A stretch of 64,000 nt of DNA. Origin: Candidatus Methylopumilus sp. Lineage in GTDB: Bacteria > Pseudomonadota > Gammaproteobacteria > Burkholderiales > Methylophilaceae. Location: contig JAHEEA010000001.1 of the NCBI GenBank assembly GCA_024640945.1, forward strand, positions 62,001-126,000, read 5' to 3'. The notes under the pieces were generated by a model. The model saw only the letters and a list, made by a program, of their open reading frames with translations. It had not been told where the DNA came from and ran no database searches. Position 1 is the first letter of the stretch. Every line of letters starts with the position of its first letter. The position numbers and the translations under genes are program-made. Below, piece after piece: positions 6,510-20,541 of this stretch.

Positions 6510-8156
6510 TTAGCCGTTAAATACAAATTTCGAGGTGATTGGATAACGCCTATCCCTTCCAAAACCTCGCTGTGTAATACGAACCCCAATTGGCGATTGG
6601 CGACGTTTATATTCATTCCTATCAATCAAACTCGTTACGCGAACAACGTCTTGCTCACGATAACCCATGCTAATAATATCAGCACGACTAGCATCATGCT
6701 CGACGTAAGCTTCCATAATCGCATCCAAAATCTCGTAAGGAGGCAAACTATCTTGATCTGTTTGATCATGCCTCAACTCTGCAGATGGAGGTCTCACAAT
6801 GATTCTTTCAGGAATCACAGCTGAAAGTGTATTGCGGTAATTCGATAGTTTATAGACCAGCGTTTTAGGTACATCTTTAAGCAATGCAAAACCACCAGCC
6901 ATATCTCCATATAGCGTTGAATAGCCAACAGCCATCTCACTCTTATTGCCAGTAGTCAGGACAATGCTACCAAACTTATTAGACAAAGCCATTAATAGCA
7001 TGCCTCTTATTCGCGCCTGCAAATTCTCTTCTGTCGTATCAAACGGCAAGCCTGCAAACTCATCAGCTAAGCTTGCTCTAAACAAATCAAATAAGGCATT
7101 AATCGGCAATTCGCTGTATTGAACCCCTAAATTTTTAGCCATTAAGTGTGCGTCGCTGACACTCATTTCCGCAGTGAATTCTGAGGGCATCATCACCACT
7201 CGAACCTGATCAACACCAAGAGCATCTACTGCAATAGCTAAAGTGAGTGCGGAATCAATGCCACCGGACAAGCCCAAAACCACACCTTTAAAACCATTTT
7301 TATTGACGTAGTCTTTCAGCCCCAAACATAAGGCTCGATAAACTGTTTCTTCCAAGCCAGCCGAAGTTGCAATGCTTTGATTTAAAGGATTCGCTTTATT
7401 TTCTTCACTGCGATCAATGTCAAGCACACCTGAGTCTTCTTCAAATGCAGCTAACTGCTGCACCAACTCACCAGAGCGGTCTAAAACAAAAGAGGCTCCA
7501 TCAAACACTAATTCATCTTGGCCACCTACCATATTCGCGTACACCATTGCTAAACCTGTTTGTAATACACGTTCGCGGGCGATCTGATGTCGAGTAGATT
7601 GCTTATCCATGTGGTATGGCGAAGCATTGAGCGCTAACAAAATTTCTGCTCCAGCTTCTTTAGCTGCTAATGCTGGCTCAGCTTCCCAAACATCCGCACA
7701 AATTAACAAACCCATTTTAATACCTTGATGTTCGAACACTGTGGCTCGCTCACCCGATTTAAAATAACGAGGCTCATCAAAAACAGTATGATTTGGAAGC
7801 ACGTGCTTATGGTAGGTCGCTAAGACCTTACCATCTTGAAGAACAGATGCGGCGTTATAACAGTCACCTTGATGTACATGTGGATGACCAACAATAACTG
7901 TGATGTCTTTAATCTCAGTTGCCAAAAACTGAAGTTCACGAAAGCAAGCAAGATTAAAATCTTCTCGTAACAACAAATCTTCTGGAGGATATCCAGAAAG
8001 AGACAGTTCGGGGGTCAGCATCAGCGTTGCGCCTTTGCTTTTTGCATCTAACGATGCCTTAAGAATCTTTTTGCTATTACCCTGAATATCACCTACGGTG
8101 CTATTCATCTGAGCAATACATAATCGAAGCGCCTGACTAATAATTGCCACCTGCAT
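6510..8156 (-). CDS. nadE: Glutamine-dependent NAD+ synthetase
   Basis: N-terminal nitrilase domain (LRLCIAQMNSTVGDIQGN) plus NadE domain (GLSGGIDSALTLAIA). The ORF track extends to 8201; start at MQVAI preferred. Confidence 0.94.
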   Translation of the reverse strand: MQVAIISQALRLCIAQMNSTVGDIQGNSKKILKASLDAKSKGATLMLTPELSLSGYPPEDLLLREDFNLACFRELQFLATEIKDITVIVGHPHVHQGDCYNAASVLQDGKVLATYHKHVLPNHTVFDEPRYFKSGERATVFEHQGIKMGLLICADVWEAEPALAAKEAGAEILLALNASPYHMDKQSTRHQIARERVLQTGLAMVYANMVGGQDELVFDGASFVLDRSGELVQQLAAFEEDSGVLDIDRSEENKANPLNQSIATSAGLEETVYRALCLGLKDYVNKNGFKGVVLGLSGGIDSALTLAIAVDALGVDQVRVVMMPSEFTAEMSVSDAHLMAKNLGVQYSELPINALFDLFRASLADEFAGLPFDTTEENLQARIRGMLLMALSNKFGSIVLTTGNKSEMAVGYSTLYGDMAGGFALLKDVPKTLVYKLSNYRNTLSAVIPERIIVRPPSAELRHDQTDQDSLPPYEILDAIMEAYVEHDASRADIISMGYREQDVVRVTSLIDRNEYKRRQSPIGVRITQRGFGRDRRYPITSKFVFNG

Positions 8157-9078
8157 CTTTAAGCATCTTGATAATTTCAGTCTTTTTAGCTTGCAAAGCA
8201 TAAACCAGTGGAGTTAAAGAGTATTGGTCTTTAGCTTTAACATTCGCACCTTTTGCAATAAGCAAACGTACCATTTCAATATCACCATTAGAAACGGCAT
8301 TGTGAAGTAGTGGCGTTCCTTGCGCGTCTTTATGATCAACATCTGAGCCTTTTTCAATCAAGACTTGAGCAACTGGGAGTTGTTTCTTTCTTACCGCCCA
8401 AGTTAAAGCTGTCCACTGTGCCTTATCCTCATCTTTAACTTTTGCGCCACTCTCAATCAAAGCTTTAACAGCATCAGTATTACCAGCACGCGCCGCATAC
8501 ATTAATGGCGTCATACTATAACGATCGCGCATTGACGGATCTGCTTTGTTTTCCAACAAGGTCTTAATGGTTGGCACATCACCATTTTTTGCTGCAAACA
8601 TTAAAATAGTTTTGCCATCATCAGTTCTTAAATTTGCATCAACGCCTGACTGTATAAGCAAACCAACCAACTCTGAATAACCTGAACTTGCTGCTAAACC
8701 AAGCGCACTCCAACCAGAAATATCACGAATCTTTGGATCAGCGCCTTTAGCCAATAAAACTTTGGCGCTCGCCACATAGTTTTTCTTAGTGGCGAACATC
8801 AGCGCTGTCCAACCACCATTTTCACGAGCATTAATGTCAGCGCCTTTTTCTATGAGCAATTTAAGCACTTCAAATTGATCTTTACGTGCAGCGTACATTA
8901 AAGCAGTAATACCATCAGCATCATGTGTATTGGGATTGGTACCGCTTTCTAAAAGACCACTTACTGTTGCCACGTCGCCTTTAGAAGCGACTGTAAGCAA
9001 ATAAGGAATCTCTTCTTCAGCATGGGCATAATTAATGCCAAGCACCAACATCAATACAATTAAAAAGTTTTTTATCAT
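8137..9078 (-). CDS. Exported ankyrin-repeat protein
   Basis: Signal peptide [20 protein letters not shown]; about 8 ankyrin repeats ([32 protein letters not shown]...). Confidence 0.9.
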
Positions 9079-9959
9079 GATGATTTTTTTGCCTTGATTG
9101 CTTGCAACACAGCCTCGCCTAAGCCAGCAGGAGAACTCGCAACAATAACTCCTGCTTTTTCTAAAGCAGCTATCTTGTCTTCGGCTTTACCGCTACCACC
9201 GGAAATAATAGCGCCAGCATGACCCATACGTTTACCTTTAGGCGCCGTTTGACCTGCAATATAGCCTGCAACAGGTTTAGTGACATGATGTTTGATGTAA
9301 TCAGCAGCAGCTTCTTCATCAGCACCACCTATTTCACCCACCATAATAATGGCTTCAGTTTCAGGGTCTGCTTGGAACATTTCCAAACAATCAATAAAGT
9401 TCAAACCACGAATTGGATCACCACCAATACCAACACAAGTAGACTGACCTAAACCCAATGCAGTTGTTTGATTAACTGCTTCATAAGTTAAGGTACCTGA
9501 ACGTGAAACGATGCCAACCTTTCCACGCAAATGGATACTGCCTGGCATGATGCCAATTTTGCACTCGTCTGGCGTAATCACACCCGGGCAATTAGGCCCA
9601 ACCAACTTCACATTATTAGCTTTAAGCGCAGCCTTAACATTCAACATATCCAATACAGGAATACCTTCAGTAATACAGACAATCAAGCCTATGCCAGCGT
9701 CACAAGCCTCTAAAATAGAGTCTGCTGCAAATGGAGGTGGGACGTAAATCACCGAAGCGTGCGCGCCAGTTGCATTCACAGCATCACGCATCGTATTAAA
9801 AACTGGTAAATCTAAATGGGTTTGACCACCCTTACCCGGTGTTACACCACCCACCATTTTTGTACCATAAGCAATCGCTTGTTCAGAATGAAATGTGCCT
9901 TGTTTACCAGTAAATCCTTGGCATAAGACTTTTGTATTTTTATTAACTAATATGCTCAT
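9075..9959 (-). CDS. sucD: Succinyl-CoA ligase alpha subunit
   Basis: [45 protein letters not shown]; start trimmed from the ORF track. Confidence 0.96.
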
Positions 9960-9966
9960 ATTTAAC

Positions 9967-11130
9967 CTACACACTCACAGCAGCAACAGCTTGTTTAGCT
10001 GCATCGGTAAGACCAGCAGCTGAAATAATTGAAAGGCCACTCTCACTTAGCATTTTGCGGCCTAATTCCACATTGGTACCTTCGAGACGAACAACAACAG
10101 GGATTTGAATACCTACTTCTTTAACTGCAGTAATAATGCCTTCCGCAATGATGTCGCAACGCATAATACCGCCAAAAATATTAACCAAAATAGCCTGTAC
10201 GTTCTGATCTGCCAAAATGATTTTAAAAGCTTTAGATACTGTTTCTGCAGTTGCGCCGCCGCCAACATCCAAGAAGTTGGCTGGGGCACCGCCGTGCAGT
10301 TTAATTAAATCCATGGTTGCCATGGCCAAGCCAGCACCATTCACCATACAACCAATATTGCCATTTAAAGCAATGTAATTAAGTCCAGCATGATGTGCTT
10401 CGGCCTCTTTAGCATCATCCTGACTCCAATCACGTTGTTCAGCGAGTAGCTTTTGACGATACAAGGCGTTGTCATCAACACTCATCTTACAATCGAGCGC
10501 AAATAACTTACCATCGGTAGTCACAACTAAAGGATTAATTTCTAAAAGCGCCAAATCATTCTCTTTGAATAATTTGTATAGCCCTTTTGCTAATTTAGTA
10601 AAAGCAGCAATCTGGTCGCCAACAAGATTGAGTGCAAAAGCAAGATTACGTGCTTGATAGTCAACCAAGCCATTCAGCGGATCACAAACCTCTTGAAGGA
10701 TTTTATCTGGCATCGTCGCAGCAACTTCTTCAATATCCATTCCGCCAGCGCTAGAAGCGACCATCACAACGCGCTCTAAGGTACGATCGACTAAAATAGA
10801 TAAATACAATTCACGCGCAATCGGCAATGTTTGCTCAACCAATAACTGATGAACCGGTTGTCCATCAGGCGCGTTTTGGTAAGTCACCAGATGCTTACCT
10901 AGTAGATTGTTAGCAACAGATTTTGCCTCACTTGCTGATTTAACAATCTTCACACCACCCGCTTTACCGCGACCGCCAGCATGCACTTGCGCCTTAACGA
11001 CCCAAGCATCTCCAGCAATCTCTTTCGTTGCAGCAGCAGCTGCTTCCGCAGACTGGACAACTTGTCCAACAGGTACCGCTAGGCCGTAGCGTTGTAATAG
11101 TTGTTTGGCCTGAAATTCGTGCAAATTCAT
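9967..11130 (-). CDS. sucC: Succinyl-CoA ligase beta subunit
   Basis: [25 protein letters not shown]-grasp. Confidence 0.96.
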
Positions 11131-11277
11131 GATAAAAAATCTAAGCAAATGATCAATGTGACATTCTCGCGCAAATCGCGTCTGCGCGCCACCCCACTGA
11201 ATGTGAATGACGTTTTAAATAGCAGCTTCTCCCGATGTATAATATTCACATTAGTTAATTTTTTAAGTCACACTCTT

Positions 11278-12126
11278 ATGCGCTTAGTTGTTCAAGGTTC
11301 AGCCATACAATTGCATCATCTGATGCACATTCACCAAATTAGCAAGGCAGTTCATGGTGCTCAATTTATTCAAATTGCAGAGCACGCATACTACCTTCCT
11401 AATCAAAATGAACCCTCAGCAACCGTAAAAGCGTTTTGCGCAGAACAAAAAATAGACTCTGCTTATGTGGCTGACAACCAGATCCTAAAAAACATTAAGC
11501 TCGCCGTAATGGATATGGACTCCACACTCATCAATATCGAATGTATTGATGAAATTGCCGATATGTACGGGTTAAAACCACAAGTGGCAGCCATTACAGA
11601 AAGCGCAATGCGTGGAGAAATTGAATTTAAAGAAAGCCTAACCAGACGCGTAGCTTTATTAAAAGGCTTGGAAGAATCTGCCTTACAAAGAGTGGTAGAT
11701 GAAAGACTGCAACTAAACCCTGGTGCAAAAACCTGGATAGACGCATGCAAAGCAAATGGGATTAAAACCTTATTAGTTTCTGGTGGTTTTGAGTTCTTCG
11801 CGCATGGCGTACAAGCCCTATTAGACTTAGATTACACAGAATCAAACACGCTAGAAATTATTAATGGAAAACTGACCGGTCGCGTTTTAGGTAATATCGT
11901 TGATGCGCAAGCCAAAGCAGATTTCTTAGTGAGTAAATGTAAAGATTTAGGCATTAGCACAGCTCAAGCAATTGCAATTGGCGATGGTGCTAACGACCTC
12001 ACCATGATGCGCGCAGCAAGTGCGGGCATTGCTTACCATGCAAAACCAATTGTTCAAGAACAAGCAAGCTATGCAATTAATCATATGGGATTAGATGGCA
12101 TCGCCAACTTATTCACGACTAGTTAA
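11278..12126 (+). CDS. serB: Phosphoserine phosphatase
   Basis: MDMDSTLINIECIDEIAD HAD motif; start trimmed to ATG 11278. Confidence 0.93.
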   Translation: MRLVVQGSAIQLHHLMHIHQISKAVHGAQFIQIAEHAYYLPNQNEPSATVKAFCAEQKIDSAYVADNQILKNIKLAVMDMDSTLINIECIDEIADMYGLKPQVAAITESAMRGEIEFKESLTRRVALLKGLEESALQRVVDERLQLNPGAKTWIDACKANGIKTLLVSGGFEFFAHGVQALLDLDYTESNTLEIINGKLTGRVLGNIVDAQAKADFLVSKCKDLGISTAQAIAIGDGANDLTMMRAASAGIAYHAKPIVQEQASYAINHMGLDGIANLFTTS

Positions 12127-12158
12127 TTTTAAAACTCAATCTTTGGAAAGTTAAAAAC

Positions 12159-12725
12159 ATGCAAATCAAAAAATTCTTACTTAGCCTCACCATCGCAAGC
12201 ACATTTTTAAGTGCATCAGCATGGGCACAGCCAACTGTTGAAATTAAAACAAACAAAGGTGTAATTATTGTTGAGCTTAATAGTGACAAAGCACCTAAAA
12301 CCGTGGCTAACTTTGTGCAATACGCAAACGATGGCTTTTATACAGGCACAGTATTCCACCGCATCATTTCTGGATTCATGATTCAAGGTGGTGGTTTAGA
12401 TAAAAATCTAAACGAGAAAACAACACGCGCCCCAATCAAAAATGAAGCTGACAATGGCCTAGCTAATACATTGGGAACCATCGCAATGGCTAGAACCGGC
12501 GACCCTCATTCTGCTTCATCACAGTTCTTCATTAATGTCGCAAACAACACCTTTTTAAATCACACTGAAAAATCAGACCGTGGTTGGGGTTACACGGTAT
12601 TTGGCAAAGTAACTAAGGGAATGGACGTTGTTGAACGCATATCAAAAATACCAACGGATGGCGGAGATGTTCCTGTACAAGCAGTTATCATTGAATCTGT
12701 TACGGTACTGCCTACTACAAAATAA
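12159..12725 (+). CDS. Periplasmic cyclophilin-type peptidylprolyl isomerase
   Basis: Signal peptide; TVFHRIISGFMIQGGG, GTIAMARTGDPHSASSQFFINV. Confidence 0.94.
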   Translation: MQIKKFLLSLTIASTFLSASAWAQPTVEIKTNKGVIIVELNSDKAPKTVANFVQYANDGFYTGTVFHRIISGFMIQGGGLDKNLNEKTTRAPIKNEADNGLANTLGTIAMARTGDPHSASSQFFINVANNTFLNHTEKSDRGWGYTVFGKVTKGMDVVERISKIPTDGGDVPVQAVIIESVTVLPTTK

Positions 12726-12735
12726 TTAATACAAT

Positions 12736-12766
12736 AAAAAAGGCCTGCAAATTGCAGGCCTTTTTT
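12736..12766. terminator. Intrinsic terminator (bidirectional)
   Basis: AAAAAAGGCCTGCAA-ATTGCAGGCCTTTTTT. Confidence 0.9.
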
Positions 12767-12779
12767 GATTTAATTTCTA

Positions 12780-13652
12780 TTATTTGATAGACAAATAAAC
12801 CAACTCGCCAGCTTTCATATCAGGCACCAACAAAAACTTACCATCTTGACTAGGCGCAATATCTGCCGCGGCCATAAAGCCTTCTTTGACCAGCTCAGCA
12901 TTAGCCACTGCGCCTTTTTCTAATTTCACGCTAAATACTTTGCCATTTTTCCAATCGCTCACATAAAACTGGTCTTTTTTGCCGTTAACGATACCGTCAC
13001 CGCCGCCAAAGCCTTTTGCAACTTCAATCAATGCATTTTTCTTCATATCCAAGCGATAAAGAATCCCAGAAACAAAATCAACCACCATAATGCAATTCTC
13101 AGTTTTGCCCATGAGCAATCCATTAGGTGCCAAAACACGTGCATCTTGCTTGCCGCTGATTACGGTAGTCACTTTACCTTGTGGAGTGATTTTATACAGT
13201 GCACCGCCAGCACCTTTTAAATCACCGCTATCACTTACGTATAAATTACCTGCTTTATCAGCCTCAAGATCATTTAAGAATAAAGGCTGTTCTGGAAACG
13301 CTTGCGCGGTAGCAAATACATGCACATCACCTTTAGGGCTTACTTTAAGCACGCGATGATTATCAGCAACGAACAAATCCTTACCGACAAAAGCTAAACC
13401 TTTTGGATCATCCAAGCCTTTAGCAAAAACACGTACTTCCCCATTTTTATCAATCACGGTAATTTGACCATCGCCATCTTTACCAAACTCACCTATCTCA
13501 GAAACAAACACTCTACCGTCTTTTGCAGAGATTGCAGACTCAGGTGTTTTTAATCCAGTCACTTTTTTAAGGTCATCAGCCTGTGCGCTAAAAGAAGCCG
13601 TGAAGCCTAGCAAAGCAAGAAATAAAGTCGTGCTGATTTTTGTTGTATTCAT
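12780..13652 (-). CDS. Exported SMP-30/NHL-like beta-propeller protein
   Basis: Signal peptide; repeated DPKGLAFVGKDLFVADNHRVLKVSPKGDV-type blades. Confidence 0.8.
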   Translation of the reverse strand: MNTTKISTTLFLALLGFTASFSAQADDLKKVTGLKTPESAISAKDGRVFVSEIGEFGKDGDGQITVIDKNGEVRVFAKGLDDPKGLAFVGKDLFVADNHRVLKVSPKGDVHVFATAQAFPEQPLFLNDLEADKAGNLYVSDSGDLKGAGGALYKITPQGKVTTVISGKQDARVLAPNGLLMGKTENCIMVVDFVSGILYRLDMKKNALIEVAKGFGGGDGIVNGKKDQFYVSDWKNGKVFSVKLEKGAVANAELVKEGFMAAADIAPSQDGKFLLVPDMKAGELVYLSIK

Positions 13653-13665
13653 AAAAAACCTTTAA

Positions 13666-14274
13666 TTAAAATGACATGAATTGAATTTTTGGCTCAGGCA
13701 AAAGATTAACGATTGCGCACGGATTTTCTGATGTTTTACCATTAAGTGCTGCTTGGAATTTAGAGTCGGCTTTCATTTTTGCAGCAACAGCCTTCATTGC
13801 TGATTGATAGACGTCTGCTAAAGCAAGCTCTTGATAGTGACCTAACACGCCTTGTTTTTGAGCTTGTCCTACATAATTAGCCAGAGGCTTACCATCTGCA
13901 GTATAAGCAGCAGCAATTACCTTGCCATAATATCTTTGGATTTGTGGGTTATAAAACATACGTGGTCTCAACCAGACCAACACATTAGAAGCGCTAGGCT
14001 TGGCATCGCACATCAATGCATTACCAGCGCCAAACTCTACATTCAAAACCTTATCCGCGGCAGATTCTAATAAAGGGCCTTGAGTGACCCAAGAATCTTC
14101 ACTGTATCGCCACAATTTAATTGGATGCGTATAGTCTTGTGATTGAATATGAATGGCAATTTTAGTTACAATCGGATCTTCAGCACTAAGCTCATGGGCC
14201 TGGGATGTGTCACTCAAAAGCATTACAGCCCATAACAAACTCATTATCATTTTCAACATATCAAATACTTTCAA
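13666..14274 (-). CDS. Exported protein of unknown function
   Basis: Signal peptide MLKMIMSLLWAVMLLSDTSQA; no family recognised. Confidence 0.75.
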   Translation of the reverse strand: MKVFDMLKMIMSLLWAVMLLSDTSQAHELSAEDPIVTKIAIHIQSQDYTHPIKLWRYSEDSWVTQGPLLESAADKVLNVEFGAGNALMCDAKPSASNVLVWLRPRMFYNPQIQRYYGKVIAAAYTADGKPLANYVGQAQKQGVLGHYQELALADVYQSAMKAVAAKMKADSKFQAALNGKTSENPCAIVNLLPEPKIQFMSF

Positions 14275-14284
14275 TTAACGTATC

Positions 14285-15544
14285 TTAGGTCAGAACATCC
14301 GACCATATATTTTTGGCCCATGCTTGTGCATATTTACCCTCAAGTTCTGAAGGCTGATCTGATACACCACCACCTTCAGCAGGCACCATAACTTTTTTAA
14401 CCGCATCGTAACGATAAACATTTGCAACATGCATTGCCATTTTATCATTGATAAAACTATAACAAGTATTAGCAAAAACCGGCTCAGGATCAGGCTGAAC
14501 CTGATTGAATAGGGAAATAATGGCATTTGCACAAATACGCGCCTGAGAAGTAGCCATGTGCGCAGATTTAGGCAAGGCTGCTGAAACCGAGTCGCCAATA
14601 ATATGAATGTTGGGAATCCATTTAGATTCATAACTTAAAAAATCCACCTCACACCAGCGTTTATCAACATTAGCAACACCAGCAATTTGTGCGATTTTTC
14701 CGGCACGTTGGGGTGGAATCACATTCAAGACATCGGCATTAAGCACTTCAAATTCAGTTGTGACCGACCTTCCTTTAACATCAACGTCAACCAGCGAGCT
14801 ATTCGGCCTGTAATCTATCATTCCAGGATAGCTCTCGGCCCAGACTTTCGTAAACAAAGCTTTTTTAGAGACAATGTCCGGATTTGCATCTAAGACGATA
14901 ACTTTAGACGCTGGCTTATTGCTCTTCAAATAGTGCGCAACCTGGCAAATGCGCTCGTATGGCCCTGGTGGGCAGCGATAAGGAGCCTTAGGAATGCTAA
15001 TGACAAACACACCGCCATTAGGCATCGCTTCCAACTGAAGTCTTAGATTAACAGTTTGAGGGCCCGCTTTCCAGGCGTGAGGGACGATATGTTGCGAGTC
15101 TGCACTTTGCAACATCGGCAGTTGCTCATACATAAAATCAATGCCTGGCGCTATAACTAAACGATCAAAGCTTAGCTGACCACGCTTCATTTTGATGGAT
15201 CGCGCATCTGCATCAATTGAAGTCACTTCATCTTTAATCCAATGAATACCATGCTGATTTTTAAGCGCATCATAGCCAAAAGTCAGATCATTGATGGTTT
15301 TACTTCCGCCCAGAACCAAATTACTTAATGGGCAAGAAATAAATTGAGTGTACGGCTCCACGACCGTCACCTGAACTTCTCCACGACTCCATAGACGCAA
15401 ATACTTGGCGGCGACCGCACCAGCATAGCCACCACCTATGACAACAACGTGAGGCCTAGCCTTACTAACGGCCAAAGAAGCAAAAGGTAAAGTTGCTAAA
15501 GAAGTACCAGCAATTTTGAGAAAATCACGCCGATTAATAGCCAC
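14285..15544 (-). CDS. fccB: TAT-exported FAD-dependent flavocytochrome c sulfide dehydrogenase-like flavoprotein subunit
   Basis: TAT motif MAINRRDFLKIAG; FAD motif VVVIGGGYAGAVAAKYLR; CPLSNLVLGG and PYRCPPGPYERICQVA typical of FccB/SoxF. Confidence 0.85.
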   Translation of the reverse strand: MAINRRDFLKIAGTSLATLPFASLAVSKARPHVVVIGGGYAGAVAAKYLRLWSRGEVQVTVVEPYTQFISCPLSNLVLGGSKTINDLTFGYDALKNQHGIHWIKDEVTSIDADARSIKMKRGQLSFDRLVIAPGIDFMYEQLPMLQSADSQHIVPHAWKAGPQTVNLRLQLEAMPNGGVFVISIPKAPYRCPPGPYERICQVAHYLKSNKPASKVIVLDANPDIVSKKALFTKVWAESYPGMIDYRPNSSLVDVDVKGRSVTTEFEVLNADVLNVIPPQRAGKIAQIAGVANVDKRWCEVDFLSYESKWIPNIHIIGDSVSAALPKSAHMATSQARICANAIISLFNQVQPDPEPVFANTCYSFINDKMAMHVANVYRYDAVKKVMVPAEGGGVSDQPSELEGKYAQAWAKNIWSDVLT

Positions 15545-15923
15545 GACTAGGATCCATTATTTGACTTTGAGGCATCATCGCTGAAATTCTTTTTTGCTCA
15601 GAAAAATAAATCGCCAATTGGTTAATTTCATCCAAACTCAAACCTTTAGCATGCCTATGCATTACGGTAGATGCACGCTCATTTTTACGAAAAGCTAACA
15701 TTTGATCTAGGAAATAATGCTTATCTAATCCTGCCAAAACAGGCGTTTCAACCAAACTATTTCCTTGTGGCCCATGACAAGCCGCACAAGAAGCCGCCAA
15801 GGTTTGAATATGCGAGGATGTTTGCTCGGCATTTGCTTGTACAGTAGACATGAAAAAAGCCCATACTGCCAAAAAAAATCTAATTTTTTGAGAGTATGGG
15901 CTCATAGATATACTAAACATCAT
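15534..15923 (-). CDS. Monoheme class I c-type cytochrome (FccA-like)
   Basis: Signal peptide; CAACH heme motif; overlaps fccB start. Confidence 0.87.
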   Translation of the reverse strand: MMFSISMSPYSQKIRFFLAVWAFFMSTVQANAEQTSSHIQTLAASCAACHGPQGNSLVETPVLAGLDKHYFLDQMLAFRKNERASTVMHRHAKGLSLDEINQLAIYFSEQKRISAMMPQSQIMDPSRGY

Positions 15924-15955
15924 TGGACCTAAGAATCAATTAGGTCCGAATAAAC

Positions 15956-16438
15956 TTAGAAGCATTTTTCATCTTTACAGCCATCATCTGGCACGCCAAG
16001 TGAAAGCAATAAATCTACCATTTTGGTGTTTCCTGTATCGCGTACTGCTCGCACAATTGAAACATCACCACGAAGCTTTGCATTTAAATCAGCACCGTTT
16101 GCCGCTAAAAACTTCACTAACTCAGGAAAGTTTTCATATGCAGCCAAATGAAATGCTGTCATTTTTGTCATTGGATGTTGATAGTTAACATCAGCACCTT
16201 TTTGAGCTAGTAATTTAACAACTGCTAACTGGCCTTTGTTTGCAGCAATTTGAATCGCTGACCAAGCAAAGAACTTTTCATTAACATCAACACCTGAGTC
16301 CAACATCTTTTTAACTAACTTTACGTTACCGTCTCTCAGGGCTTCAGTGTATTGAACTTGTTGCTCACCTTCCATTGCGTATGACGCAAAAGGAATACTC
16401 AATGCAATTACCATCATTAAAGCTTTAACCATTTTCAT
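15956..16438 (-). CDS. Exported ankyrin-repeat protein with C-terminal Cys pair
   Basis: Signal peptide MKMVKALMMVIALSIPFASYA; ankyrin repeats; C-terminus DDGCKDEKCF. Confidence 0.88.
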   Translation of the reverse strand: MKMVKALMMVIALSIPFASYAMEGEQQVQYTEALRDGNVKLVKKMLDSGVDVNEKFFAWSAIQIAANKGQLAVVKLLAQKGADVNYQHPMTKMTAFHLAAYENFPELVKFLAANGADLNAKLRGDVSIVRAVRDTGNTKMVDLLLSLGVPDDGCKDEKCF

Positions 16439-16460
16439 GTGTTGTTCTCCAAATTACTTT

Positions 16461-19400
16461 TTAATTAATAAACTTTCTTGCATTTCTAAACATTCTAATC
16501 CATGCACCATCTTCACCCCATGCATCTGGATGCCAAGAGTTTTGTACAGTACGGAAAACACGTTCCGGATGCGGCATCATAATACTAAAACGCCCGTCCT
16601 GCGTAGTTAATCCTGTAATTCCTTGAACTGATCCATTTGGATTAAATGGATACACTTCAGTTGCAATGCCAGCATTATCTACAAAACGCATCGTCACTAA
16701 TTGATCAGCAACAACTGAATTGACAGCAGATTGTGAAGAAAATTCCGCAAAACCTTCACCATGTGCAACAGCAATAGGCATACGGCTTCCAGCCATACCT
16801 GCAAAGAATAGTGATGGGGACTCCTGCACTTCCACCATTGCAAAACGTGCTTCAAACTGCTCGGATTTGTTACGGACAAAATGTGGCCATTGCTCTGCGC
16901 CAGGAATAATACTGTGTAAATTACTCATCATCTGGCAACCATTACAGATGCCTAATGAGAATGAATCTTGGCGTTGGAAGAATGCTGAGAACTCATCTCT
17001 CGCACGCGAATTAAACAAAATAGACTTCGCCCAGCCCTCACCAGCGCCCAATACATCGCCATATGAGAAACCGCCGCAAGCCACAAAACCAGCAAACGCT
17101 TTTAAGCTAACGCGACCACTAATGATATCGCTCATATGAACGTCATAAGTAGCGAATCCTGCACGGTCAAAAGCAGCAGCCATTTCAGTCTGACCATTCA
17201 CCCCTTGCTCACGCAAGATCGCTATTTTAGGACGTACGCCAGTAGCGATATAAGGTGCAGCAACGTTTTCACTTGGGTCAAATGTTAGTTTTGCATGCAA
17301 GCCCGCATCTGATTTATTCAAGATACGATCGTATTCTTGCTGAGCACATACTGGGTTATCACGCATTTTTTGCATTTGATATGTCGTTTCAGACCATGCA
17401 CGATGCAAATCAACACGAGAAGCTTCAAATACCGCTTTACCAGCTTGCCTAATCACAATTTCATCACCAACGGTCACGTCACCAATAACATGAATGCAAT
17501 TTGGCAACGCCTCTTTTAAACTCAATGCAATTACATCAGCATCAGATGCGCGCACTTGAACAACAGCGCCTAACTCTTCGTTATACACTACACTTGCAAC
17601 ATTTCCAGCTAATCCATCAAGATTAACATTTAAGCCACAATGTCCTGCAAAGGCCATTTCAACAAGCGTTGAAAACAAACCACCATCTGAACGGTCATGA
17701 TAAGCAAGCAATTTGCCGTCTGCATTCAAGCGTTGAATTGCAGCAAAAAAGTTTTTTAAACGACCCGCGTCATCAACGTCTGGTGCTTGATTGCCTACAG
17801 CACCATACACTTGCGCCAAGGCTGAACCACCCATACGGTTTTTACCTGCGCCCAAGTCAATCAAAATGAGCTTGGTATCGCCTAAGTCTGTTCTTAATTG
17901 TGGCGTTAGTGTTTTACGTGCATCGGTGGTTGCAGCAAAAGCGGTAACAACGAGTGAAATTGGTGATGTCACAGCTTTCTTCTCACCTGACTCATCCCAT
18001 ACTGTCTTCATAGACATAGAATCTTTACCAACGGGAATGCTGATACCTAGCGCAGGACATAACTCCATACCCACTGCCTTAACAGTATCAAACAATGCTG
18101 CATCTTCACCTGGGTGACCGGCTGGGGCCATCCAGTTTGCAGATAATTTCAAGTCACCAATATCATTAATTAAACTTGCAGCAATATTGGTGATTGATTC
18201 GCCAATGGCCATGCGGCCTGAAGCTGGCGCATCAATTAAAGCTAAAGGTGCTTTTTCACCAATCGCAAAGGCCTCACCTTGATAAGTCTCATAACCAGCA
18301 AGCGTTACCGCAACGTCGGCCACTGGGATTTGCCAAGGACCCACCATCTGATCTCGAGCGATTAAACCTGTAACAGAACGATCGCCAATGGTGATTAAGA
18401 ACGTTTTATCAGCAACGCCTGGCAGCCTTAGAACGCGATCAGCCGCATCTTTTAAGTTGATAGCCTCAGTATTAAACTCGGCTAACTCACGTTTAGCGTG
18501 TTTAACATCACGTAACATTTTAGGAGGCTTACCCAGTAAAACAGACAAGTCCATATCTACTGGCTTATTCTCAAAGTGCGCATCAGCCACAGTTAAATGA
18601 CGCTCTTCTGTGGCCTCACCCACCACAGCAAACGGACAACGCTCACGCTCACAAATCTCAGCAAATACAGCTAAGTTTTCTTTAGCGACTGCCATCACAT
18701 AACGCTCTTGCGCTTCATTGCTCCAAAGTTCGCGCGGAGACATTCCTGGCTCTTCATTATGGACATCACGCAATTGGAATAAGGCACCAACGCCTGCATC
18801 ATTCACTAATTCAGGGAACGCATTTGAAATACCACCCGCACCAACATCATGAATACTTAAAATTGGGTTTTTATCGCCTAACTGCCAACAACGGTCAATC
18901 ACCTCTTGCGCGCGACGCTCAAGCTCTGGATTACCTCGTTGCACTGAGTCAAAATCTAAGTTCTCAGCATTTGAACCTGTATCCATACTAGATGCAGCAC
19001 CACCGCCTAGGCCAATTAACATCGCTGGGCCGCCCAACTGAATCAGGCAAGCACCTGCCGGAATAGGATTCTTTTTAGAATGCTTTGCTGAAATATTACC
19101 TACGCCACCAGCCAACATGATTGGCTTATGGTAACCACGCACCTCACCAGCAGATTCCAATTCAAAAGTTCGGAAGTAACCTGCAATATTAGGACGACCG
19201 AATTCATTGTTATAAGCCGCGCCACCAAGTGGTCCATCTATCATAATTTGCAAAGGCGAAGCGGTACGTGAAGGTTTTCCGTAATTGCCTTCCCATGGCT
19301 GTTCAAAACCAGGGATATTCAAATTAGACACTGAAAAACCAGTTAAGCCAGCCTTGGGCTTGGAGCCACTACCTGTTGCACCTTCATCACGAATTTCACC

Positions 19401-20351
19401 ACCAGCACCTGTAGCCGCACCAGCAAATGGCGAAATAGCTGTTGGGTGATTGTGCGTTTCAACTTTCATCAAATAATGCATTTCTTCTTCGATGAAGCCA
19501 TAAGCACCATCTGCTTGTGGATAAAAACGCTTTGTTTTCTTACCAGCAGAACCAGCAACAATAGAAGCATTATCTGAATAGGCAACCACAGTGCTGCCTG
19601 GGTTGAGCTTGTGAGTATTACGAATCATGCCAAAAAGTGATTGTGCTTGTGGCAAGTCATCGACCACCCAATCAGCATTAAAGATTTTGTGACGACAATG
19701 CTCAGAATTCGCTTGTGCAAACATCATCAATTCAACGTCAGTTGGATTACGACCAATACGCACAAAATTCTCTAGCAAATAATCCACTTCATCTGGTGAC
19801 AAAGCCAATCCCAGGTCAAGATTCGCTTGATTAAGTGCAGCTTGGCCACCCTTCAATATATCCACAGAATTCAAAGGTGTTGGCTGAGCTTGATGATATA
19901 ACTTGCTTGCATCGTCTATGTTTGAAAATACTGCCTCAGTCATACGATCATGAATCGCAGCCTTAAGCGCAAGCTTTTCAGCATTAGTCAAAGCTTGGCC
20001 ATCTTGCTTGCGCGCATAATAAGCAATACCACGTTCGATTCGTTGCATCTGAGCCAAACCACAATGTTTAGCAATGTCAGTCGCACGCGAAGCCCAAGGT
20101 GAGATCGTACCTGGACGTGGAATCACTAAAAACAATTCACCCACGGGTAACTCTTCAGCCATTTTTGGACCGTAAGTCAAAATTTTGGAGAGTGTCTCTA
20201 ATTGACCATCATTCAAATCGCCATCGCTCCAAGCGAAATGCCAAAAATCAGCGTGCAAGTGGCTAATTTGAGGCGCCGTTGTTTTTAATGCCGCAAGAAT
20301 TTTTTCAAGTCTAAATGGAGAAAGCGCAGAGCTGCCGCGTAAACTAATCAT
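16461..20351 (-). CDS. purL: Phosphoribosylformylglycinamidine synthase
   Basis: Full-length PurL with C-terminal glutaminase domain ([14 protein letters not shown]). Confidence 0.97.
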
Positions 20352-20541
20352 GGTTGGATGCATGGATTAAGCGATGAAATGGTAAAAAAGCATATTTTAC
20401 CCGAAATCAGCCTGAATAATCCGCGTGACTTTTGTTTTATTACAGGTGATTTTGATATCTTAAAATCAGTCTCGCAAAAAATTTTAGCCTCTAAGAAATA
20501 AACAATATGAATACTTATCGTAGCAATATAAAATTTGAACA

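Follow-up and report, generated by a model that had tools for sequence, protein, structure and literature searches.

Flavocytochrome c sulfide dehydrogenases (FCSDs) of solved structure (1fcd, 3vrd and 5n1t) are the closest described relatives of the enzyme encoded at the locus analysed here, which shares with them a full-length FccB containing both FCSD domains, the redox and FAD-linking cysteines and an adjoining cytochrome c gene. In Thioalkalivibrio, fccAB occurs together with the genes for thiocyanate dehydrogenase (TcDH) and copCD (PMC5328954). That cluster resembles ours in holding FccAB inside a larger set of genes for periplasmic oxidation, although its TcDH, copCD, ABC transporter and two-component genes are absent from the cluster described here.

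The window, a stretch of 64,000 nucleotides, belongs to a 1.55 Mb genome of the Candidatus Methylopumilus type within the Methylophilaceae, a family of abundant methylotrophs of freshwater and coastal waters. The sulfur supply of pelagic Methylophilaceae is described as unclear (PMC6794327), and the same is stated of sulfur handling by the family (PMC6794327, PMC4611497). With its single copy, conserved synteny and near-universal, family-only protein, the FCSD operon provides a direct genetic handle on the sulfur handling of these bacteria.

A sequence-only reading of the window had reported five minus-strand genes ending at a terminator, and this run was recovered in full (Table 1), the order of transcription being purL, ankyrin, cytochrome c, fccB, the family-only gene, the SMP-30/gluconolactonase-like (SGL) propeller and the terminator. 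The terminator is common to the run and to a convergent peptidyl-prolyl isomerase gene (12159-12725). The cytochrome gene and fccB overlap by 11 bp, and the remaining gaps within the cluster measure 10-32 bp. All five products have hydrophobic leaders with A-x-A-like ends and look exported, a prediction based on the sequence pattern of the leaders alone; FccB additionally contains an RRDFLK motif, for which the Pfam and TIGR Tat models score below cut-off. A sigma-70 promoter scan of the locus gave nothing above chance. The hairpin at the ankyrin/cytochrome junction was not conserved in sister species, so we make no regulatory claim for it.

Table 1. Positions in the window of the genes and hairpins of the FCSD locus, in order of transcription.
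Feature	Position	Strand	Remarks
purL	16461-20363	-	true upstream neighbour; ankyrin start lies 22 bp past its end
Ankyrin-repeat protein, putatively exported, 160 aa, C-terminal DDGC..C	15956-16438	-	Pfam Ank_2 4.5e-22
8-pair hairpin, ankyrin/cytochrome junction	15925-15947	-	might act in translation control or as a weak terminator
FccA-like monoheme cytochrome c, one CXXCH	15534-15923	-	best PDB match 5n1t_B, E 4.5e-14
FccB-type FCSD flavoprotein, GTG start, RRDFLK Tat-like motif	14285-15544	-	PF21706 1.5e-44, PF09242 2.5e-23
Family-only protein (unknown family), probably 197 aa	13666-14259	-	start at ATG 14259; the ORF list has 202 aa, from TTG 14274
SMP-30/gluconolactonase-like (SGL/NHL) propeller, putatively exported	12780-13652	-	PF08450 7e-12
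Intrinsic terminator of the run	12736-12766	-	14-pair hairpin + T run; strong, bidirectional

Four of the five products (propeller, FccB, cytochrome and ankyrin) gave Pfam matches. Judged by its domains and active-site cysteines, the flavoprotein is a genuine FCSD subunit, which bears out the FccAB-like identity first read from the sequence. It matched PF21706 (FCSD_central) with 151 bits (cut-off 27) and PF09242 (FCSD-flav_bind) with 83 bits (cut-off 26), and its closest solved structures are the flavin subunits of FCSDs (5n1t_A, 1.4e-95; 1fcd, 8.1e-93; also 3vrd), the first of which we take to come from a thiocyanate-oxidising Thioalkalivibrio. In the alignment to 5n1t, residues Cys71, Cys191 and Cys298 fall on cysteines, and we assume them to be the equivalents of Cys42, Cys161 and Cys337 of A. 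vinosum, that is, the FAD-linking Cys and the redox disulfide; Cys71 and Cys191 are invariant in 16 sequences, and Cys298 is nearly so (Val in one relative). The adjoining cytochrome best matches the short cytochrome chain of the 5n1t FCSD complex, is short and monoheme like it, unlike the longer cytochrome of 1fcd, and was monoheme in 34/34 loci examined. The window genome contains one FCSD flavin-binding match, and FccAB taken alone is an unremarkable representative of a known family. Other roles are possible for FccB-like proteins, either of the SoxF type or in thiocyanate clusters (PMC5328954).

We surveyed 187 genomes of the family, 119 of them of good quality, from 24 genera. The family-only gene was present in 151 genomes (114 of the good-quality ones) and in all 24 genera, the SGL propeller in 172 (117) and fccB in 126 (91). 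Gene placement was examined in the 133 genomes with clear matches to the family-only protein among the matches listed, leaving out the weak matches of genus g16 and a few others. The conserved gene order that the sequence-only reading had looked to other genomes for was found: among the matches listed, fccB lies on the same strand at most 5 kb upstream of the family-only gene in 108 of the 116 genomes with both, and SGL at most 5 kb downstream of it in 112/126. Chance neighbourhood was ruled out, since over 100 genomes show the same order and the synteny extends over most of the 24 genera.

In 40 loci examined in detail, the arrangement was purL-ank-cytc-fccB-quinoprotein-family-only gene-SGL(-DUF455) or subsets of it, revealing a sixth member that is missing from the window. 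For a pattern search of named genomes, a 7-row alignment was used, the 28-row one being too divergent. The full order from purL to SGL is found in named loci of Methylovorus, Methylobacillus and Methylotenera, and Ca. Methylopumilus loci show it minus the quinoprotein. For loci of the window's genus the label is Candidatus Methylopumilus or uncultured Methylophilaceae, and the others are Methylovorus, Methylobacillus, Pseudomethylobacillus and Methylotenera.

The sixth member, which usually sits between fccB and the family-only gene, is a soluble PQQ-type glucose/sorbosone dehydrogenase (GSDH, PF07995) whose relatives include the soluble PQQ sugar dehydrogenases 2ism and 6jt5. It shares with them the domain and the likely PQQ-site residues: an invariant His and an R-N-x-Q stretch are kept, presumably the catalytic and PQQ site. 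We found the quinoprotein in 96/187 genomes of the family (73/119 of good quality) and, among the matches listed, upstream of the family-only gene in 89/92, whereas no match was obtained anywhere in the window genome. The six-gene form is probably ancestral, and the best reading is that the quinoprotein was lost in the window lineage, leaving a reduced operon. Such losses are scattered, affecting the window's genus as a whole and five other genera in part, beside a standard arrangement of fccB, family-only gene and SGL.

The putatively secreted protein of 202 aa that had been proposed between fccB and the propeller is indeed encoded there, but its probable length is 197 aa, starting at ATG 14259, because its relatives begin at the matching methionine (MLN/MIN). 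Neither Pfam nor NCBIfam matched it with a meaningful score, and no sequence match came from the PDB. Its family was found in 0/368 other genomes of the class, and the one match outside the Methylophilaceae, in one genome of the order, is marginal (E 8e-4). Two cysteines, Cys84 and Cys181, are invariant, consistent with a disulfide. Structure prediction, suggested earlier for this protein, gave an AlphaFold model (pLDDT 79, pTM 0.73) that retrieved PelC, LptE, PqiC, CsgG and a Caulobacter lipoprotein as top Foldseek matches (E 2.4e-4 to 4e-3), tentatively pointing to a PelC/LptE/PqiC-like fold at TM-scores of only 0.33-0.41. With outer-membrane lipoproteins of the PelC/LptE/PqiC/CsgG type it may share the predicted alpha/beta fold, but it is only about 10-16% identical to them and has the invariant Cys pair. 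No Cys was found at the end of the leader in the window or in relatives, and for want of a lipobox we discarded the idea of a lipoprotein. A plausible reading is that it acts as a soluble partner in the periplasm, at the outer-membrane side.

The propeller scored well above the PF08450 cut-off (45.9 against 26.3 bits), and its residues E38, N127, N177 and D219 are invariant. These may correspond to the Glu, Asn, Asn and Asp of the SMP-30 metal/substrate site. It shares the domain, and perhaps these metal-site-like positions, with the SMP-30/gluconolactonase family and with Campylobacter Cj1041c (22gu), its nearest natural full-length solved relative, but unlike them it appears to be exported.

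The elaborated cluster is, within the sample examined, a feature of the Methylophilaceae, because none of 78 FCSD loci elsewhere in the class contained the family-only gene, SGL or the quinoprotein (0/78), an FccA-like cytochrome being nearby in 73 of them. The open-access literature provided no description of the cluster, of an ankyrin with FCSD or of SMP-30 in Methylotenera. The earlier suggestion of an undescribed system applies to the cluster, a lineage-specific variant of the FCSD operon that is undescribed as far as the open-access literature shows, but not to FccAB, whose family is known.

We hold with moderate confidence that the run represents an FCSD operon in its Methylophilaceae form, reduced in the window lineage, with the electron flow and partner roles outlined next. 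Homology, active-site residues, synteny, loss patterns and the presence of soxYZ are observed; the electron flow, what the quinoprotein oxidises, the functions of propeller, family-only protein and ankyrin, and any physical complex are inferred. FccB would take electrons from sulfide at the Cys191/Cys298 disulfide and hand them, by way of FAD, to the monoheme cytochrome c; from this cytochrome they would enter the periplasmic pool of cytochromes and finally reach a terminal oxidase. The sulfane sulfur would probably be released as polysulfide or accepted by SoxYZ, which is encoded elsewhere in the genome. The small-genome genera g14 and g16 contain neither fccB nor a SoxZ match at the chosen threshold, which fits this reading but represents a single phylogenetic pattern, confounded by phylogeny, and no independent support. 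In the six-gene form, the PQQ-type dehydrogenase would supply the same cytochrome pool as a second electron source, the SMP-30-like propeller would act as hydrolase on the lactone-type product of that enzyme or on a related ester, and the family-only protein would be a periplasmic, outer-membrane-side partner of this dehydrogenase/propeller pair. The window lineage would then have retained the remaining genes after the quinoprotein was gone. The ankyrin may assist in the periplasm, perhaps in a thiol- or heme-related way, and probably shares a transcript with purL in many relatives.

The sequence-only reading had instead suggested that the ankyrin, the family-only protein and the propeller may make up an accessory complex in the periplasm that extends what FccAB does. 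For the last two, a role as simple extensions of FccAB is at odds with their distribution. Genera g14 and g16, with complete genomes of ~1.3 Mb, are without fccB and keep SGL and a diverged family-only gene, which in g14 are 360-420 kb apart. The most persistent members of the cluster are the family-only gene and SGL, not FccAB; because both outlast FccAB in these streamlined relatives, they are not merely FccAB accessories, and what they mainly do may have nothing to do with either FccAB or the quinoprotein. With fccAB and the quinoprotein lost in different lineages, and two partner genes retained, the family provides a natural experiment.

The same losses bear on a reading that we consider possible, if less probable, in which two modules are co-located by history: FccAB for sulfide, and quinoprotein, family-only protein and SGL for the oxidation of an aldose or alcohol, with the last two proteins serving this second module or periplasmic housekeeping. 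Five loci (L033, L035, L040, L059 and L068) contain ank-quinoprotein-family-only gene-SGL with no fccAB alongside, and one genome has the quinoprotein-family-only gene-SGL set twice, its sole FccB homologue being located elsewhere; the small genomes without either enzyme that still keep the two partner genes also agree with separate modules. However, the opposite loss is equally common, since about 20 genomes among the matches listed, including the whole genus of the window, have fccB beside the family-only gene and SGL and no quinoprotein. It is more doubtful that an undescribed periplasmic system of the Methylophilaceae has at its core the family-only protein and SGL, retained even in ~1.3 Mb genomes, with FCSD or the PQQ dehydrogenase, and usually both, plugged into it as exchangeable sources of electrons and the family-only protein serving as a docking scaffold.

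Genuine SoxY (129 bits against a cut-off of 125) and SoxZ are encoded elsewhere in the window genome, as is a quinoprotein-associated SoxYZ-like carrier, and FccB might accordingly act like SoxF, reactivating or unloading the SoxYZ carrier instead of oxidising free sulfide. We judge this improbable, because fccB lies outside any sox cluster, its cytochrome partner is FccA-like, and the neighbours of soxYZ are a BepA-like protease gene and others, no further sox genes being among them. Least probable is that another sulfur compound (thiocyanate, methanethiol) is oxidised and FccAB takes the released sulfur, as in TcDH clusters: 5n1t is the closest solved FccAB, Thioalkalivibrio fccAB has the neighbours described above (PMC5328954) and dimethylsulphide SIP labelled Methylophilaceae (PMC4611497), but no TcDH, CopC, CopD or methanethiol oxidase was recognisable among the ORFs at 8137-20363, and DMS monooxygenases are reportedly missing from pelagic strains (PMC6794327).

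Within the preferred reading of an FCSD operon, the ankyrin gene stands somewhat apart. The Cys pair noticed at its C terminus is a lasting feature, DDGC..C being kept in 39/39 true orthologues examined, and wherever purL is part of the locus the gene lies behind it, at a gap of 22-131 bp in 39/39 loci. We detected no terminator-like hairpin at the purL/ankyrin junction in these 39 loci, whereas 12/39 have one 3' of the ankyrin gene, as compared with a total of four over all other junctions inside the cluster (Fisher 2e-6). Given this excess we rejected the ankyrin gene as a plain member of the cytc-fccB transcript and, in relatives with such a hairpin, the gene most likely ends the purL transcript. 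Its assignment to the cluster is therefore only partly upheld: separate transcription is partly indicated, but exported ankyrins do occur near FCSD genes in other families. Predicted exported ankyrins of about 306-330 aa were found near 7/78 FCSD loci outside the family, as compared with 0/40 control stretches (p = 0.05), making a link between periplasmic ankyrins and FCSD suggestive, not settled. These proteins are closer to the second ankyrin of the window than to the one of 160 aa, and are without the C-terminal Cys motif; most of their genes immediately precede cytc-fccB and share its orientation.

Relatives of the cluster often carry a gene for a DUF455 ferritin-like protein next after SGL, the gene of the exported SMP-30/gluconolactonase-like propeller, at a median spacing of 9 bp (for instance at loci L031 and L038); no DUF455 gene is present directly after SGL in the window. 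In the sister genome G009, a frameshift splits the SGL gene in this assembly, and the matches fall in two frames.

The Methylophilaceae-restricted family persists as a diverged, solitary copy in two genera (g14 and g16) with genomes of ~1.3 Mb that lack fccB, and in g14 SGL lies hundreds of kb from this copy. Genome G467 contains two blocks of quinoprotein, restricted-family and SGL genes, 143 kb apart, which score identically, and its sole FccB homologue is located away from both. This doubling reflects either a recent duplication or an assembly artefact.

The window's own genome, which is streamlined, encodes on other contigs a true soxY-soxZ pair and, apart from it, a quinoprotein dehydrogenase-associated SoxYZ-like carrier; no further sox genes were seen beside either. 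Immediately behind sucCD, the window encodes another exported ankyrin, a protein of 313 aa. At locus L070, a 317-aa homologue also adjoins sucCD, and in other families similar ankyrins of ~306-330 aa occur upstream of flavocytochrome c sulfide dehydrogenase genes.

Coordinates of the features described
Feature	Source	Position
Second ankyrin	window	8137-9078
soxY-soxZ	L110	4639-5398
SoxYZ-like carrier	L109	6461-7249
Diverged solitary family copy (g14/g16 example)	G022, C1	579575-580054
DUF455 gene	L031	3063-3878
DUF455 gene	L038	9942-10763
Frameshifted SGL	G009, L042	6558-7211
First block	G467, C1	931598-935649
Second block	G467, C1	1074630-1078681
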